From Pseudoxanthomonas sp. SE1 (lineage in GTDB: Bacteria > Pseudomonadota > Gammaproteobacteria > Xanthomonadales > Xanthomonadaceae), in contig NZ_CP113783.1 of NCBI RefSeq assembly GCF_029542205.1, positions 3,463,001 to 3,527,000 of the forward strand: a stretch of DNA of 64,000 nucleotides, read 5' to 3'. This document shows, piece after piece, positions 3,953-23,622 of the stretch. The notes beneath the pieces are model-generated. The model saw only the letters and a list, made by a program, of their open reading frames with translations, was not told the DNA's origin and made no database searches. Numbering within the stretch: position 1 is the first letter of the stretch; each line of letters opens with the position of its first letter. Both the position numbers and the translations under genes were made by a program.

Positions 3953-4570
3953 TCATTCCGCCAGCAGGGTGGCGATCAGGCCGGCGTGCCGGACATCCTG
4001 CGCCTCGCGGCGCAGTCGGCTGGCGGTGAAGATGGCGTGCATCTGCTCGACGGCGGTCTCGAACACATCGTTGACGATCACGTAGTCGAATTCCGCGTAG
4101 TGCGACATTTCCTCGCGGGCGGCCGCCAGCCGGCGCTGGATGACCTCCTCGCTGTCCTGCCCGCGCGCCCGCATGCGCTGTTCAAGCGCGTCGCGCGAGG
4201 GCGGCAGGATGAACACACTGACCGCGTCCGGCACCTTCTCGCGCACTTGGCGGGCGCCCTGCCAGTCGATTTCCAGCAGCACGTCCTTGCCTGCCGCGAG
4301 CTGCGGTTCGACCGACTGGCGCGCGGTGCCCTTCCAGTCGCCGTGCACCTCGGCGTACTCGAAGAAGTCGCCTGCACGGATCATCGCCTTGAATTCGTCG
4401 GCGCTGATGAAGTGGTAGTGCTGCGCATGCCGTTCACCGGGACGCGCGCCACGCGAAGTGAACGAGATCGACAGCGCGATATCCTCGTCCCGCGCCAGCA
4501 CGGCATTGACGATGCTGCTCTTGCCCGCGCCCGAGGGGGCCGCGACGATGTAGAGGGTTCCGCGCTTCAT
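3953..4570 (-). CDS. gmk: Guanylate kinase
   Basis: A 205-residue enzyme that phosphorylates GMP to GDP with ATP in the cytosol. The P-loop APSGAGKSS is at residues 11-19. [19 protein letters not shown] is the GMP-binding region and [12 protein letters not shown] is the conserved central motif. Length is normal. The start codon overlaps the stop of the yicC gene upstream (ATGA at 4567-4570), indicating translational coupling. Confidence 0.97.
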
Positions 4571-5427
4571 TCGATGTTCTGCGCCTGTTCGCGGATCTGG
4601 TCGATCAGCACCTTCAGCTCCACGGCGATGTTGGTGGTGCGGACGTCGACCGACTTGGAGCCGAGGGTGTTCGCTTCACGGTTGAATTCCTGCAGCAGGA
4701 AGTCCAGCCGCCGACCCTGCGGTTCCTTCTGGGTGAAGACGCGGCGGATCTCCTTGATGTGGCTGTCGAGGCGGTCGAGTTCCTCGTCCACGTCGAGCTT
4801 CTGCAACCACAGCACCAGTTCCTGCTCCAGCCGGCCCTGCTCCATGTTCTGCGCCACGTCGGCCAGGCGAAGTTCCAGCTTCTGCCGCTGCCCCGCGCGG
4901 ATGTGCGGGATCAGGGTCCGTACCTCGGCCGCCAGCGCGGCAATGCCATCCACGCGCTCCAGGATCGCCGCCACCAGCTTGCCGCCCTCGCGTTCGCGCG
5001 CCGCGACGAACTGGTCGAGCACCGCGTCCAGCAAGGCCAGCGCCTCGGCCTGCAGCGCGTCCATGTCCACGCCCTTGCTCTGCAGCACGCCGGGGAACTG
5101 CAGCAGGTCGGTCAGATCGGTGCGCAGGTTGGGCAGGCGCGAGGACAGTTCCAGCGCGAGCTCCGACAGCTGTGCGATGACACCGGGATTGATCTGCAGG
5201 GCACCCCCGCCTTCCGGCGCCCGCAGGCGCAGCGTCAGGTCCAGCTTGCCGCGCGAGACGCGCGAGGCGACCCGTTCGCGCAGCGCCGGTTCGAGCACGC
5301 GCAGTTCGTCCGGCAGGCGGACACCCAGTTCAAGGAAACGGTGGTTGACCGCGCGCAGTTCGGCGGCGAGCGAGCCGCCCTCGGTGGCGCGCTCGGCAGT
5401 GGCGAACGCCGTCATGCTGCGGATCAT
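4567..5427 (-). CDS. yicC: YicC family protein
   Basis: A 286-residue member of the YicC/YloC family, for which endoribonuclease activity has been reported in E. coli. The start MIRSMTAFA is the family's usual beginning; an ATG four codons upstream is less likely. Other family blocks are [12 protein letters not shown] near the N-terminus and the C-terminal [19 protein letters not shown]. It overlaps gmk by four bases, and lies divergent from rph, so the short gap between them should hold both promoters. Confidence 0.93.
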
Positions 5428-13048: not shown

Positions 13049-13066
13049 GCCGGCTGCCGTCCCGCT

Positions 13067-14029
13067 TCAGCGTGATGGCACCAGGGTGTAGCTGCCGTCG
13101 TCGTAGCTGACGGGCAGCAAGGCATAAGCGCGCCGTCCGTCTTCCGGCAGCGGGTAAGGCTTCATGCGCATGCTGCGCGCCTGCGCCTCTAGGCCGCGCG
13201 CGCTGGCCGGCGTGGGCAGGCCTTCGATCATCGTCACCACCTCGCCGCGCCCGCCTTCCGGATTGGCGCGATACAGGAAGAAGGCGAACGACGGTCCCAG
13301 CGGGATGCGGGCATCGGGCGCGATGAACTTCTCGCGCTGGTTCTCGGCGGCGATCTCCAACTGTGTCGCGCCCCACACCGCCTTGCTGCCATGCCCGTCC
13401 AGCTGCGTGAACAGCATGCGGTCCAGATCGGTGCCACGCGCCTCGCGCAGTTCGTCGAACCAGCTGCGCCCCACCGCTTCCTGGTCGCCGCCCTTGGGCA
13501 TGGCCTTGTAGCAGCGGCTGATCAGATAGGCGTGGTAGGCCGTGTTGCGGTATGGCGCGTCGGCGGTGTTGCGATGGGGCTGGGTACCGCGTGTGCGGGC
13601 TTCCCTTTCGCGGTCCAGCACCACCCATGCCTGCGCCCACTGCATAGCGGGCTTGGCGTTGCCGGCGGCCAGCTCCAGTTCGGCCAGCGATGCCAGTGCG
13701 ATCAGCGGGCAGCGCGCGGACGCCACGCATTTCTCCAGCCAGAAGCGCGCGGTTTCCACGTCGCGCTCCACACGCCGCGCAGGATGGTCCATGCCGTGCC
13801 GGTACAGCGCGCCCAGGTAGAACGCGGAATAGCCGTCACCGGCCTGCGCATGCGCGACCAGCTGCTGCATGGCGGCATCGCGTTCCGCCGCCGGCGCCTC
13901 GCGATCCAGCAACGTCTCCAGCACTTCCGGCGGCGTCTCGGGCGGCGCCACGGGCTCGTTTCCGTAAGCCGCCGCCATCCACACGGCCCCGGCCACGATG
14001 CACCCCCTGACGACGTTCCGCATGTCCAT
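13067..14029 (-). CDS. Secreted Sel1-like repeat protein, hypothetical
   Basis: A 320-residue protein with an N-terminal signal-like segment (MDMRNVVRGCIVAGAVWMAAAYG). Residues ~60-140 look like one or two Sel1/TPR-type helical repeats (GDGYSAFYLGALYRHGMDHPAR, ETARFWLEKCVASARCPLIALASLAELELA). The C-terminal half has no recognised domain. It is probably periplasmic. A GGAAGGGG ribosome site precedes the ATG at 14029. Function unknown. Confidence 0.75.
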   Translation of the reverse strand: MDMRNVVRGCIVAGAVWMAAAYGNEPVAPPETPPEVLETLLDREAPAAERDAAMQQLVAHAQAGDGYSAFYLGALYRHGMDHPARRVERDVETARFWLEKCVASARCPLIALASLAELELAAGNAKPAMQWAQAWVVLDREREARTRGTQPHRNTADAPYRNTAYHAYLISRCYKAMPKGGDQEAVGRSWFDELREARGTDLDRMLFTQLDGHGSKAVWGATQLEIAAENQREKFIAPDARIPLGPSFAFFLYRANPEGGRGEVVTMIEGLPTPASARGLEAQARSMRMKPYPLPEDGRRAYALLPVSYDDGSYTLVPSR

Positions 14030-14172
14030 GCCACCCCTTCCATTGGTGACCAGACGCTAGCCTGCCAGCGCGCTGCCGGCAAGCCGCCCTGCGGCATTCC
14101 CGTCGTGGTGGTTTGACGGGGGAAGCGGGCGCTTACAGAATCGGGCGGCGCCCGGGGTGCGGGCTAGAAGGC

Positions 14173-14179
14173 GTTAGGG
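14173..14179 (+). other. Core-site-like GTTAGGG before first cassette gene
   Basis: GCGTTAGGG lies just before the ATG at 14183. This matches the integron recombination core GTTRRRY except for the last base and sits where a cassette boundary would be. The preceding 70 bases do not give a convincing complete attC or attI. Confidence 0.45.
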
Positions 14180-14182
14180 CTC

Positions 14183-14578
14183 ATGATCATTCTTTTCCGC
14201 ATCCTGATATTGGTCGCGATTGCTTCCCTTCTAGCGGCGGCGTGCCTGCCGTTCGATCGCCCATTCCAGATCAGCGTCGATCTCAATCAGCCGCCACCGG
14301 CCTGGCTGGCTCTTTCGGGTGCATTTGTCATTGCCGTCTTAGGCGCAGTGGTGGCTTCAGGAGCACTTTTTCTGTTCCGGGGTTGGGGCCGCTGGTTGGG
14401 TGCTCTTGCTTGTGTGGCTGGGCTTGTAATCGCTTGGCTGGCCGCTGGCTCGCCTATCGCTCGATCCGTGAGCACCTTGGCCACCACACTCCTGGTGTTA
14501 TCCGCGTTCACTTGGCTGACGGTCTTGGTACTCTCATGTCATCCCTCGGTAATGGTTAGGTTTCGGCATGAGCGGTAA
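14183..14578 (+). CDS. Small membrane protein, probable gene-cassette product
   Basis: A 131-residue hydrophobic protein with about four membrane-spanning helices (starting MIILFRILILVAIASLLAAA, then ~48-70, ~72-90 and ~100-118). No family recognised. Codon use and GC content are lower than in the flanking core genes. The gene starts 4 bases after a GTTAGGG core-like site and its stop merges into an attC-like element, so it has the layout of an integron cassette. Confidence 0.7.
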   Translation: MIILFRILILVAIASLLAAACLPFDRPFQISVDLNQPPPAWLALSGAFVIAVLGAVVASGALFLFRGWGRWLGALACVAGLVIAWLAAGSPIARSVSTLATTLLVLSAFTWLTVLVLSCHPSVMVRFRHER

Positions 14579-14632
14579 CAGCTCATTCAAGCCGAGCCCA
14601 CTATGTGGGTTCACCCAACCCAGGCACTAGGC
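14573..14632 (+). other. attC-like recombination site 1
   Basis: About 60 bases right after the stop codon. The 5' half reads TAACAGCTCATTCAAGCCGA, very close to the start of aadA-type attC sites. A small hairpin CCCAC/GTGGG is in the centre. The 3' end AGGCACTAGGC corresponds to the usual CAGGCGTTAGGC with two changes in the core, so the site may be inactive. Confidence 0.7.
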
Positions 14633-14635
14633 GCA

Positions 14636-14989
14636 ATGACGCGACTACATAAGCTATGCCTCATAGCCCTCATGACAGCCGTGCTCGGCTGCACGCCATC
14701 GATCTCCCGCGATCAATCCAAAAGTCTGGCCGCGGCGAGTGCCGTCCTTCTCGCGCACCCCGAGGGAGACATTCCTGAATCCAGCTGGCCTGAGGTTGTG
14801 GCCAACCTCAAGCCAAAGCGCGTTTACCGCAACCATCAAGGCGTCTACATCTGCACATACGAGTTCTTTGTTGAGCAGCAAGGTGTTTTCATCCTTGACC
14901 CGGCATCAACGTTCATACCAAATCACAATGGAGATCCCAGCTATGAGGTCGTCGCCGCAGGCATCTTCACCTACCGTAGCGCTGGCTAG
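14636..14989 (+). CDS. Small lipoprotein, probable gene-cassette product
   Basis: A 117-residue protein. I chose the ATG at 14636, not the upstream one at 14603, because the upstream start lies inside the attC-like site and the shorter form begins with a proper lipoprotein signal (MTRLHKLCLIALMTAVLGC, lipobox Cys at 19). The mature part is unremarkable and ends in a stretch with EVVAAGIFTYRSAG. Envelope-located if the signal works. No family recognised; GC is below the window average. Confidence 0.7.
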   Translation: MTRLHKLCLIALMTAVLGCTPSISRDQSKSLAAASAVLLAHPEGDIPESSWPEVVANLKPKRVYRNHQGVYICTYEFFVEQQGVFILDPASTFIPNHNGDPSYEVVAAGIFTYRSAG

Positions 14990-14991
14990 TT

Positions 14992-15054
14992 CGCGCCGGG
15001 CAGTCCATTCGAACTGATGCCGCTTTGCGGTGTAGCCTGATTCAGACGTTGAAT
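14992..15054 (+). other. attC-like recombination site 2
   Basis: Starts a few bases after the stop at 14989. It has CATTCGAACTGATGCCGC, a central CCGC/GCGG hairpin, then GTAGCCTGATTCAGAC and a perfect GTTGAAT core (GTTRRRY) at 15048-15054. The 3' half is the best preserved of the array; the 5' core is degenerate. Confidence 0.7.
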
Positions 15055-15070
15055 CGCACACAAGAAAACC

Positions 15071-15361
15071 ATGACCACTGAAAAAGACGATCATTTCTAT
15101 GATCGGGCAGACGCCCATATTCATCTGGCCAACGATCAAACGAAAGACACGGGTCGCGGCAAAGTGAGCGCCTCGTTCCTTTATGGGGCTGCACGATTCA
15201 ATGTCCATGTCGCGGCCTGCAACTGCGAATCAAAGCATCAGATGATCAATGAGCGCGACAGCATTCGTGACTACTACGTCGCCGAGTACACGAAGATGCT
15301 GGAGGAGCATCTGGATGACTACGTTGAGCATTACGACAGGTACATGCGCAAGGACACGTAG
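15071..15361 (+). CDS. Hypothetical protein, probable gene-cassette product
   Basis: A 96-residue soluble, hydrophilic protein (MTTEKDDHFYDRADAHIHL...). The middle has ASFLYGAARFNVHVAAC and the C-terminus is an acidic/aromatic helix (YTKMLEEHLDDYVEHYDRYM). This resembles short DUF3144-type proteins (DUF3144: FYDRADAHI.LAN), an assignment from memory. It is probably cytosolic. GC is near 50%, far below the flanks. It starts 17 bases after a GTTGAAT core and is followed by another attC-like site. Confidence 0.75.
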   Translation: MTTEKDDHFYDRADAHIHLANDQTKDTGRGKVSASFLYGAARFNVHVAACNCESKHQMINERDSIRDYYVAEYTKMLEEHLDDYVEHYDRYMRKDT

Positions 15362-15363
15362 GG

Positions 15364-15502
15364 TCCTGACAGTTCATTCAAGCCGAAACCGCACCATGGC
15401 GACGTGATCAGGCGTCAGGCGGCATCGCGAGGGTGCAGAGCGCTGAAGACGGCACCTGAACATTCCTCGTGCGACATTCGGCTTCCCTTTCAAGCGTGAG
15501 GC
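15364..15502 (+). other. attC-like recombination site 3 (long, or two half sites)
   Basis: The 5' part has TGACAGTTCATTCAAGCCGA at 15368-15387. The 3' part has TTCGGCTTCCCTTTCAAGC at 15478-15496 followed by GTGAGGC, one change from GTTAGGC. AAGCCGAA and TTCGGCTT pair, as do CGCAC/GTGCG inside, so a single ~139-base attC is possible. An internal AGGCGTCAGGC (15410-15420) could instead end a 57-base site, leaving a half site after it. Confidence 0.65.
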
Positions 15503-15507
15503 GCCGA

Positions 15508-15903
15508 ATGGCTACGCAAGATGAAATCATGGCTCTGGAGCGAAAGTTCTGGCAATCCATGATGGACATGGACCTCGATACGGCTGTGTCCCTTCTGGAT
15601 GAGCAGTCCACGGCTGCAAGTGCCCAGGGCATCCATTACTTCGACCCCGCCGAGTACAAAGCGATGGCCCTATTGGGGGATGCTCGAATCACGTCTTTCG
15701 CGTTCTTTGATGAGAGAGTCATCTTCCCTGTCCCGGACGTGGCTATCGCTTCCTACAAGGCAAAGCAATCTTTCACGATGGGCGGGAAAAGTCATGAGAT
15801 GGTCGTGTATGACACAACCACATGGATCAGGAAGGGTGGAAGGTGGGTAGCTTCTGCCCATACAGAGTCGCCTGAGCAGAAAGATCCGTCGGGCGCCACC
15901 TGA
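15508..15903 (+). CDS. NTF2-like (SnoaL/DUF4440-type) protein, probable gene-cassette product
   Basis: A 131-residue protein with the cone-shaped NTF2-like fold pattern: MALERKFWQSMMDMDLDTAVSLL at the start, then strands ending WIRKGGRWVASAHTESP. Such proteins are common as cassette genes and as stand-alone small-molecule binders or isomerases. No catalytic function can be read. The ATG at 15508 is 5 bases after a GTGAGGC core-like site. GC is lower than in the flanks. Confidence 0.78.
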   Translation: MATQDEIMALERKFWQSMMDMDLDTAVSLLDEQSTAASAQGIHYFDPAEYKAMALLGDARITSFAFFDERVIFPVPDVAIASYKAKQSFTMGGKSHEMVVYDTTTWIRKGGRWVASAHTESPEQKDPSGAT

Positions 15904-15904
15904 A

Positions 15905-15957
15905 GGGGCATTCAAGCCAACTCCACCTCGTTACGCGACTCAATACATGCGTCGAGC
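15905..15957 (+). other. attC-like recombination site 4
   Basis: The decamer CATTCAAGCC at 15909-15918, six bases after the stop of the NTF2-like gene, repeats the arm seen at 14584 and 15375. The far end GCGTCGAGC (15950-15958) is one change from a GTTGAGC core. The two arms pair poorly, so this is probably a remnant. Confidence 0.55.
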
Positions 15958-15973
15958 ATCAAGGATGTCCCAC

Positions 15974-16309
15974 ATGACCCGCGACCTCGGATTCTGCGTG
16001 ATCTACCGTGCACGGGTACATCCCGACAAGGAAGCCCAGTACATCGCCGCCTGGTCCAGGCTGACGATGCTCATCCGTACCCAACGGGGTGGACTGGGTT
16101 CCCGACTCCATCGCGGCAACGACGGGCTCTGGTATGCCTATGCGCAGTGGGAAAGCGCGGAGAAGCGTGCGGCTGCATTCGCAATGCCCGCCGTCGACCC
16201 GGCGGCACAGGCCGACATGGCCGACGCCATCATCGAATCTTTCCCCGAGATTCTGCTGGATCCGGTAGAGGATCAGTTGATGCCGGTCCAGATACGCAGG
16301 ACAGGCTGA
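15974..16309 (+). CDS. Antibiotic biosynthesis monooxygenase (ABM) domain protein
   Basis: A 111-residue protein with the ferredoxin-like ABM fold (FCVIYRARVHPDKEAQYIAAW, then QWESAEKRAAAF). Members include heme-degrading and quinol monooxygenases but many are uncharacterised. The ATG at 15974 has AAGGA 8 bases upstream; 15965 is an alternative. It may be the last cassette of the array or the first chromosomal gene after it; I see no attC-like decamer after its stop. Confidence 0.8.
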   Translation: MTRDLGFCVIYRARVHPDKEAQYIAAWSRLTMLIRTQRGGLGSRLHRGNDGLWYAYAQWESAEKRAAAFAMPAVDPAAQADMADAIIESFPEILLDPVEDQLMPVQIRRTG

Positions 16310-16381
16310 GCTGCACGTGATGTTCAACGGCGGAGCCGGTACACCCATCGAACAGGTGTCGTCCGCACGTCTTGAACGCCC

Positions 16382-16774
16382 CTACGCCTCGAACCGACCT
16401 CCCGCATCACGGTCACGCGCATATCGCTTCGCGAGTGGAAACGCGGGCAGCCAGGACTCGCGACGGATCGTCCACAGCTCGTAGGTGGGCGTCAGCTGGT
16501 CGGGGGCATCCAGGGACCCGAGGTTGAGTTCGATCTCGTCTCCGCTGCAGCCGAACACCGACGCGCCGCAGCGAGGACAGAAGAAACGTCCGGCGTAGTC
16601 GCGCGTCTCGCCTTCCACCGTCACCGCGTCGCGCGGGAAGATCGCCGAGGCGTGGAACAGCGCCCCGTGATGCTTGCGGCAGTCCAGGCAATGACAGAGT
16701 CCAACGCGATACGGGCGCCCCGACGCCACGAACCGCACGTTGCCGCACAGGCAACCACCGGTGAATCGCTCCAT
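16382..16774 (-). CDS. GFA family (glutathione-dependent formaldehyde-activating-like) zinc protein
   Basis: A 130-residue protein with the GFA zinc-binding pattern: GGCLCGNVRF, then CHCLDCRKHHGA and FFCPRCGASVF. Members fold like glutathione-dependent formaldehyde-activating enzyme, but most are uncharacterised. The ATG at 16774 is preceded by AAGGAGA, so the upstream ATG at 16810 is not needed. A second GFA-like gene lies at 17345; the two differ strongly. Confidence 0.88.
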   Translation of the reverse strand: MERFTGGCLCGNVRFVASGRPYRVGLCHCLDCRKHHGALFHASAIFPRDAVTVEGETRDYAGRFFCPRCGASVFGCSGDEIELNLGSLDAPDQLTPTYELWTIRRESWLPAFPLAKRYARDRDAGGRFEA

Positions 16775-16939
16775 GCTGCATCTCCTTCGAACCAGGCACA
16801 CAAGGTACACACCTGACAGGGAAGGAAGCGCTGGTGCCGCGCATTACCCATGTGGATGCGCATTGTCGGCGCATCGCGCCGTGCGTCGCGCTGCCCTGCG
16901 CAGTACGATGCGCCCACTCCGTCCCAACGTGGTATGCCC

Positions 16940-17335
16940 ATGTCGAAGTCCGAATACCTGCTGATCTCCCGCGGCCAGTGGGACGAAACCGCCTCGCCGC
17001 AGGATGTCCAGAGCGCCATCGACCGTTTCTACACGTGGTACGAACAGGGCCTGGCCGATGGCGTGCTGAAGCCCGGCAGCCGGCTGGAGACCCACGGCAA
17101 GCGGGTCACGCGCGATGGCATCACCGACGGGCCGTTCGCCGAGGCGAAGGAACTGGTGGGCGGTTACTGGTTCATCGTCGCCGACTCGCTGGACGACGCG
17201 GCGCGGATCGCCGCCGGGAACCCCTGCCTGCCGTACGGCCTGACGCTGGAGATCCGGCCGCTGGAAGCCGCGCGGGCGCGTGCCAACGATGTGACCAACG
17301 AAACGCCGCCGGCCTGGCGTTCGAGCGGCGGCTGA
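16940..17335 (+). CDS. YCII-related domain protein
   Basis: A 131-residue YCII/DGPF-type protein. The signature is visible: MSKSEYLLISRG at the start and DGPFAEAKELVGGYWFI in the middle (DGPFxExKE). These are dimeric alpha/beta proteins often encoded next to ECF sigma factors; none is present here. The first ATG at 16934 (MPMSKS) is an alternative start. It is 9 bases upstream of the GFA-like gene, suggesting one transcript. Confidence 0.85.
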   Translation: MSKSEYLLISRGQWDETASPQDVQSAIDRFYTWYEQGLADGVLKPGSRLETHGKRVTRDGITDGPFAEAKELVGGYWFIVADSLDDAARIAAGNPCLPYGLTLEIRPLEAARARANDVTNETPPAWRSSGG

Positions 17336-17344
17336 GCCGCGCCG

Positions 17345-17779
17345 ATGACGGCAGCGCATGCCCGGCTGGAAGGCGGCTGCCACTGCGGCGCGATCACGCT
17401 CGCCTTTTTCACCTCGCTGATGCCGGGTGCCACGGCTCCGCGCGCATGCGACTGCAGCTTCTGCCGCGCACACCGCGCGGCCTGGGTGTCGGATGCCGCG
17501 GCGCAGCTGATCATCCACGCGCATCGCCCCGACCGGCTCCGCCGCTACCGGCAGGGCTCGCAGGCGGCGCAGTTCCTGCTGTGCGGCGACTGCGGCGTGC
17601 TGGTGGCGGTGATATTCGAGGAGGATGACCGCATCTGCGCGGCCGTCCATGTCGGTTGCCTGGACGCGCGTGATGCGTTTGCACCTGCCGTGGGCGTCTC
17701 GCCGCAGACCCTGACGCCCGACGAGAAGACTGCGCGCTGGCGGCGGCTGTGGATCCGCGACGTGCGGATGGTGCCGTAA
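17345..17779 (+). CDS. GFA-like zinc-binding protein
   Basis: A 144-residue protein with GFA-type cysteine pairs: GGCHCGAITL, CDCSFCRAHRAAW and LCGDCGVLVA. The expected third set is present, so it can probably bind zinc. The first block is typical; the middle (aligning to the substrate part) is divergent. It probably shares a transcript with the YCII gene. Substrate unknown. Confidence 0.82.
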   Translation: MTAAHARLEGGCHCGAITLAFFTSLMPGATAPRACDCSFCRAHRAAWVSDAAAQLIIHAHRPDRLRRYRQGSQAAQFLLCGDCGVLVAVIFEEDDRICAAVHVGCLDARDAFAPAVGVSPQTLTPDEKTARWRRLWIRDVRMVP

Positions 17780-18235
17780 GTCGGCCTTTGGGCCCGCAAG
17801 CGTTTGAATCCCGATGTCCGGCCATTGACGGTTGCGCGCAAGCCGCTGGGCCTCGTGCGCCCAGTGCGATGAGAGAAGGACAAGGTACGGTGCCTTGTCG
17901 GCGCAAGGGTCCAGGCCTTGCGTGCAGACCATGCCGGCCGGCGCGTAGGCTTTCGAGCCCCGGGCGCCGCCCTCAGGATCTCGCGCGCCCGGCGTAGCGG
18001 CTTGTGCGCAAGAGCGTTGGCCTTGGTGCCGCGAAGTCCGGAGCGCCGTATGCAAGGCTCATCGGCCTCGCGCTTGGGATCCTGGGGCTTGCGCGCAGGG
18101 CTCGATGCCAGACAGGCGACGTCCACCGTGACAAAGAGCGGTCCCGACAGGCCATGCACAAGGCCTGATGCCTTGCGCGCACGGTGCATTTCCTTGCACT
18201 TGTGCCGCGTGGAGTGGACGCGCCGTGCCGCTATG
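17780..18235. other. 456-bp gap rich in TTGCGCGCAA-type palindromes, no gene seen
   Basis: No convincing gene lies here. Open frames on the minus strand have Arg/Pro-rich, non-protein-like content. The sequence holds many variants of a short palindrome: TTGCGCGCAA (17832), CTTGTGCGCAAG (18001), CTTGCGCGCA (18089, 18172), CCTTGCGTGC (17917), plus hairpins such as AAGGC/GCCTT at 18160-18174. The density of these units is higher than elsewhere in the window. Possible explanations are a dispersed repeat, a structured RNA or a decayed gene. Confidence 0.5.
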
Positions 18236-23257: not shown

Positions 23258-23443
23258 CGTCCTCTGCTGTACTCGACAGTGAGCGCAAACATTCGCCTTG
23301 TCCCTTAATTACGACCACGGGATGGTGACGGTTACCGGGAGTGCAGGTCTGCCTCGCAGCGGAAAGCCCGATGGTTGCCCAACCTTCCCACTTGAACCCC
23401 GGGTTCAAGGTCGTTTCGCGAACATCGTGCATGGCGGAGGACG
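23258..23443 (+). ncRNA. ssrS: 6S RNA
   Basis: About 186 bases. The ends pair: CGTCCTCTGC at the 5' end with GCGGAGGACG (23434-23443). The 3' arm holds TTGAACCCCGGGTTCAAGG (23393-23410), the well-conserved hairpin also seen in E. coli 6S. It is between zapA and the 5-formyl-THF cyclo-ligase, the conserved location. A T-rich run (TATTTTT) follows. 6S RNA binds the sigma-70 holoenzyme in stationary phase and mimics an open promoter. Ends are estimated from pairing. Confidence 0.88.
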
Positions 23444-23622
23444 TATTTTTCCCGCGGCAGCGGCATCAGCCGCGACCCGGCCGGTCCTGTCGCACCCGCC
23501 CTTGAGCGGGATGACTTCGAAACGAAGCCGATTGCACTAGGGATCCGACGCACTGGGCCGTGACTGACGCCGCTCCCGCGGATTCACCGGCAACGCCGGT
23601 GCGCATGCCGTAAAATTCGCGC

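Follow-up and report, generated by a model that had tools for sequence, protein, structure and literature searches.

Remains of a probable integrase-less integron platform in the chromosome of Pseudoxanthomonas sp. SE1

To address how a row of small genes separated by attC-like motifs could come to lie in a chromosome with no integrase gene (intI) beside it, we analyzed positions 14173 to 15957 of the window, the 64,000-nucleotide stretch C1:3463001-3527000 of Pseudoxanthomonas sp. SE1 (genome code G000; one contig of 4,229,371 bases). Four small genes (c1-c4), all on the plus strand, lie here between core-like sites. A first-pass annotation had described them as small genes of one strand with a lower GC content than their flanks, and this was confirmed, as the array has 55.6% GC versus 68% in the flanks, below all other 1771-bp stretches (sampling step 50 bp). 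The sequence of the c1 product (14183-14578, 131 aa) suggests a membrane protein and is negative in Pfam, with no family; c2 (14636-14989, 117 aa) is lipoprotein-like by eye; c3 (15071-15361, 96 aa) belongs to DUF3144 (PF11342, E 2.2e-29) and c4 (15508-15903, 131 aa) to DUF4440, NTF2-like (PF14534, E 2.6e-10). None of the four was assigned to a family by NCBIfam or PADLOC. When 14000-16500 was searched against plasmids, the matches were solely to the right-hand GFA gene, in rhizobia and their relatives, and the array was unmatched. Relatives of one flanking gene at five named loci came from Pseudoxanthomonas (4/5) and Lysobacter (1/5). Rfam at gathering thresholds reported 6S RNA alone in the whole window, at 23258-23444 (80.7 bits).

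The decamer CATTCAAGCC occurs exactly, on the plus strand, at 14584, 15375, and 15909, in each case 6 to 14 bases past a stop codon, and a variant, CATTCGAACT, follows the stop codon of another small gene at 15006. Three exact copies were observed where 0.09 are expected, and none of 100 shuffles contained at least three. A search allowing one mismatch was rejected as a signal, since it showed no excess (6 hits versus 3.5 expected, equaled in 18 of 100 shuffles). Reading of the sequence gave six core-like ends: GTTAGGG, ACTAGGC, GTTGAAT, GTCAGGC, GTGAGGC, and GTCGAGC. The decamer positions, their spacing from the stop codons, the variant, and the core-like ends other than GTTAGGG had all been noted in the first-pass annotation, and all were borne out.

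As a check that the annotation had itself proposed, we built an attC covariance model (R1), for which 34 of the 38 attC sites in the intact integron of the same genome were used. Over the whole window with filters off, its three best matches all fell inside the array and in array orientation, with the next match anywhere at 11.1 bits. They are remnant 1 (14572-14633, plus strand; core ACTAGGC at 14626-14632; 15.3 bits, window E 0.15), remnant 2 (14994-15055, plus strand; core GTTGAAT at 15048-15054; 15.9 bits, window E 0.098), and remnant 3 (15363-15421, plus strand; core GTCAGGC at 15414-15420; 25.1 bits, window E 1.6e-4). Taken alone, the matches of 15.9 and 15.3 bits are near noise and not significant: R1 found no attC in the stretches of nine relatives (best E 0.39), where the best chance-like match reached 14.4 bits. 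We accepted these two matches because the sister genome described below agrees with them, as do their position, their strand, and the decamer. Remnant 4 (15909-15957, plus strand), the right end of the array, is identified by the exact decamer CATTCAAGCC as its arm, the core GTCGAGC at 15951-15957, and homology to the sister genome from 15956. The stretch 15421-15502 is, as its sequence reads, probably a gene-less cassette remnant (15422-15502, plus strand) that ends in half an attC with the core GTGAGGC at 15496-15502. R1 gave no match distinguishable from noise at 15909 or at the core at 15496, so that the annotated attC at the end of each gene is upheld by three model matches and the last one is unconfirmed by the model.

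The bottom strand of a functional attC site folds to an attC hairpin. When the bottom strands of remnants 1-4 were folded as single-stranded DNA and compared with shuffles, the z scores were -0.5, -1.5, +0.3, and +0.1, versus -7.6 for a native attC and -4.0 and -0.3 for the first and second sites of the sister genome. Since its attC hairpins fold no more, the window array looks dead, as the view of a mostly fossil array had it, and we infer that excision from the window copy is unlikely.

The absence of an integrase from the window, also annotated earlier, was true of the locus: a tblastn search with the intI protein and a search of the flanks revealed neither a match nor a stub, whether in the window as a whole or next to the array. 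It was not true of the genome. A search for an integrase elsewhere, likewise suggested by the annotation, returned a strong intI (TIGR02249, 474.8 bits, cut-off 265) at C1:2549350-2550288, 0.93 Mb from the array. This is the one intact intI, the other seven rows of the TIGR02249 search being below the cut-off. A strict pattern counts 38 attC sites in the array beside it, with the arm TTCAAGC in all and CATTCAAGCC in most, which makes the window decamer the left arm of a native attC. R1 also matched 17 sites on the plus strand at C1:4054762-4062366 (E up to 0.015; 14 at 77 bits or more), further clusters at C1:111777-123745 (n = 6) and C1:3748250-3749523 (n = 2), minus-strand sites at C1:3913233-3914721 (n = 3) and C1:3712208 (n = 1), and a doubtful site at C1:3950255 (16.3 bits). 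In these other attC clusters, tblastn with the intI protein gave nothing better than E 0.9, and none of the cassettes of the window array was found in the other arrays of the genome.

Comparison with relatives, another check proposed with the annotation, identified one sister genome, G024, as informative. Among the stretches of 34 relatives compared (G001, G015, and G025 were left out), it alone keeps the gene order p320, array, ABM, GFA. Homology between the window and G024 ends at 14185 on the left, covers 14578-15001 around c2, and restarts at 15956; the breaks thus lie at core sites, as cassette boundaries do in a cluster of attC sites lacking integron-integrase (CALIN; PMC9024848, in the passages available). 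Instead of c1, G024 has another gene (134 aa) with an attC of 48.8 bits (E 1.5e-12), and instead of c3 and c4 two different open frames (133 and 97 aa). The common cassette gene c2 is 86% identical with a dN/dS of 0.33, and because its dS of 0.23 is within the range of the flanking genes (0.17-0.31; PepQ 0.26, p320 0.17, GFA 0.18, ABM 0.31), it was probably in place before the split from G024. As one cassette is common, the rest differ, and the breaks are at core sites, the array probably predates that split and its content changed later. With the R1 matches in the array as well, neither of the outcomes that the annotation named as refuting it was observed. The attC scores in G024 fall from left to right (48.8, then 22.8 for the counterpart of remnant 2, then none over noise), as expected for new cassettes entering at the left; the window scores (15.3, 15.9, 25.1) show no such fall and leave a left-entry order unsupported. 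No empty, uninterrupted site was found among the 34 stretches. The PepQ-PepP interval in which the locus lies (window 13049-18235) is highly variable among relatives, both in the genes that it holds and in their order, and p320, GFA, and YCII-like genes appear, vanish, and move within it.

Relatives of the four genes were sought in 297 genomes of the family. For c3, with relatives in 50 other genomes, nine loci were tested. The four closest (L109-L112) adjoin strong attC sites, and in three of these attC lies on both sides; the remaining five were without attC. Three of six c1 relatives adjoin an attC (two on both sides), and c1 is absent from G024. Besides G024, one of eight c2 relatives adjoins attC; the model matches that flank it left and right are partial and score 36 bits. 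The search listed 27 c4 relatives in other genomes; 12 were tested, and none of these was beside an attC. The annotation of four cassette genes is thus backed by attC-flanked relatives for c1, c2, and c3; c4 is counted as a cassette because of its position in the array and its absence from G024 at the threshold used.

The annotated start of the array at 14173 does coincide with a core, GTTAGGG at 14173-14179, and what had been missed is a probable attI with a promoter just to the left of it. A TTGACG box (14113-14118) is separated by 17 bases from CAGAAT (14136-14141), which places a promoter-like site where a cassette promoter is expected, and an inverted repeat follows (GCCCG at 14150-14154, CGGGC at 14160-14164). 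To derive an attI model, we retrieved the DNA upstream of 26 Pseudoxanthomonas intI genes. An attI-like module was present in 25 of them and missing in L198, and an alignment of 24 rows (23 modules of one type and the module of G000 itself) with a five-pair stem gave the model R2. A second, distinct intI type (372-378 bits) with its own attI type was seen at G024:C1:980090-981028 and G036:C18:1686-2624. The distance from the -35 box to the core is 69 to 72 bp in 21 measured modules versus 67 bp at the window site.

In the window, the best match of R2 was 14111-14179 on the plus strand (17.3 bits, E 0.0021), with the next at 7.3 bits. Genome-wide the site ranked fourth (E 0.135), below matches of 81.7, 76.3, and 55.1 bits and just above one of 16.6 bits. 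An nhmmer attI model left the window's left end unmatched, and R2 scored the G024 counterpart at 10.6 bits (E 0.24) and a core-less decoy in L065 at 14.1 bits. By a composite attI score, the window site was first of 127,844 positions with a loose geometry, and 0 of 653,540 positions in the loci of 33 relatives reached 20 or more with the same geometry, whose ranges were chosen after sight of the window site; we therefore repeated the scoring with a strict geometry, where the site was third. Judged by these sequence features, 14111-14179 is probably a decayed attI, for which cassette-promoter activity is predicted.

We went on to ask how common attI sites without an integrase are in the genus. 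At E values up to 0.001, R2 identified 95 attI-like sites in 31 of 38 Pseudoxanthomonas genomes; 26 of the 38 have an intI over the cut-off. By comparison of coordinates by eye, 24 of the 95 sites adjoin an intI and 71 are without a detected one, a count that includes some sites near contig ends and that used an intI list from which decayed intI genes would be missing. In six one-contig genomes, 4 of 14 sites adjoin intI. Twenty of the 71 sites were sampled, and 18 have a same-strand attC downstream at E up to 0.1 (exceptions, L226 and L229); the 20 are not independent, as eight come from G029 and four of those lie within 17 kb. An N-terminal intI stub was present in 4 of the 20 (L220, L223, L228, L229) and also in L206 and L207. 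Contigs C4 and C5 of G029 (L206, L220-L227) contain nine attI-like sites and no intI over threshold; several of these sites keep N-terminal intI stubs, and the four in 17 kb have one orientation. In G000 itself, the locus L099 (C1:106001-126000) has an attI without intI at 5262-5332 (scored at 40 bits with nhmmer and 55 bits with R2) and six attC matches over 12 kb with an 8-kb gap among them, and the clusters L100, L101, and L102 have no attI by nhmmer or R2.

One attI site without intI recurs in seven genomes (G000, at L098, and G024, G013, G014, G012, G030, G032) with left flanks 85 to 92% identical; the gene in its flank looks like one for a sensor kinase. Six of the seven genomes carry an intI elsewhere, and G012 has none over threshold. 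In G000 (L098, C1:4050000-4068000), a well kept attI with a promoter (4441-4510) heads an integrase-less array with 17 attC matches. The left flank is common to the six other genomes, and the cassettes differ from those at the G024 site. Three cassettes are shared with the main array of G000 at 96 to 99% identity, and the first cassette matches a cassette of the G024 main array at 99.4% identity, compared with 88% for the chromosomal flank. The excess of cassette over flank identity and the cassettes in common with the main array suggest that cassettes recently entered at an attI with no neighboring integrase, whether exchanged in trans or transferred, the catalyzing enzyme being putative.

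Taken together, these results lead us to read the window locus, with a probability of roughly 75%, as a small satellite integron platform, now fossil, in the Pseudoxanthomonas chromosome. A cassette promoter and attI at 14111-14179 would once have taken up circular gene cassettes inserted by an integron integrase, and four genes and a gene-less remnant, divided by attC remnants, would be what is left over. A local intI may have been lost, or the attI module may have been copied without it; no intI lies next to the attI and array today, as it would in a complete integron. The array would have formed before the split from G024 and its cassette content turned over afterward. The insertions would likely have been catalyzed either by the intact intI, which lies 0.93 Mb off, or by a former intI at the locus itself, and we lean, if only slightly, toward action in trans at this locus. 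As the attC hairpins eroded, the cassettes would have become fixed as ordinary genes.

Three origins have been proposed for CALINs in the passages seen of PMC8618304, namely off-target insertion, loss of intI, and rearrangement. In the off-target version, a distant integrase put cassettes into an ordinary attG-type site, more joined them, all decayed, and the left end is no attI. Such insertion has been shown for E. coli according to passages of PMC12444791, and it would agree with the intact intI in the genome, the lack of an intI stub at the locus, the weak genome-wide attI score (E 0.135), and the clusters L100-L102 without attI. However, the window's best attI match sits exactly at the left end of the array, with promoter, inverted repeat, and core at near-usual spacing. 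Because attI sites without intI abound in the genus, have attC downstream in 18 of 20 sampled cases, and in one case are common to seven genomes, we consider a fossil platform likelier than random insertion, and the off-target version unlikely.

We give still less weight to the rearrangement proposal, in which chromosomal rearrangement brought in a complete integron, or part of a main array, which then broke down; it is improbable here. The variable content of the PepQ-PepP interval speaks for it, but the local order is the same in G024, no intI remnant lies beside the array, and no cassette is shared with the main array. That there is no integron at all, and that four unrelated small genes carry chance motifs, is hardly credible: two of three attC matches are weak, the hairpins are unfolded, and the c4 relatives tested are not cassettes, yet three decamers appeared in 0 of 100 shuffles, the breaks are at core sites, some gene relatives are cassettes, and the G024 array with its 48.8-bit attC, in our view, already refutes this explanation.

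We tentatively hypothesize, at somewhat less than even odds, that integrase-less platforms, each with its own promoter and attI, form a network in Pseudoxanthomonas chromosomes and would be filled and reshuffled in trans by one distant integrase; some would keep their place across species while their cassettes change wholly, and the window locus would be a dead one. If so, integrase-less arrays would in many cases be outposts of an integron spread over several sites, and more than debris, and cassette capture would be independent of the integrase's own address. The attI heads, some with an intI stub, let the proposed CALIN origins be tested site by site within one genus, and the window locus and its G024 copy together exemplify cassette turnover without a local integrase and the passage from array to fixed genes.

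The term CALIN reportedly goes back to Cury et al. 2016, and attG insertions of cassettes are said to have been described by Loot et al. 2024. The window array is a CALIN, with several attC sites, small one-strand genes, and no adjoining intI; it differs in its eroded attC sites and in the probable attI and promoter at its head. The annotation took such arrays to be known, and this one with its cargo to be probably undescribed; the CALIN is indeed of a known kind, and the novelty lies in how abundant attI platforms lacking an integrase are. In the literature searched, with subscription papers mostly outside it, we found no report of attI sites without integrase in Pseudoxanthomonas; attC sites of the genus are mentioned in the available part of PMC11089894. 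The attG sites, described in passages of PMC12444791 as neither attC nor attI, would likewise place cassettes far from intI, whereas the window left end resembles an attI. The same passages report CALINs in about half of Xanthomonas genomes, at conserved places away from the ilvD-intI locus. These share with our case the bacterial family, fixed chromosomal places, and an intI elsewhere in the genome, but no attI at their head is described in those passages. Another related case is the CALIN of Shewanella prophage M16-3, which, in the part of PMC9892861 available, has its own attI, one base off that of a known integron, so that an integrase-less array headed by an attI likewise occurs in the same DNA as a complete integron; that array is in a prophage, whereas the window locus is chromosomal, decayed, and one of many in its genus.
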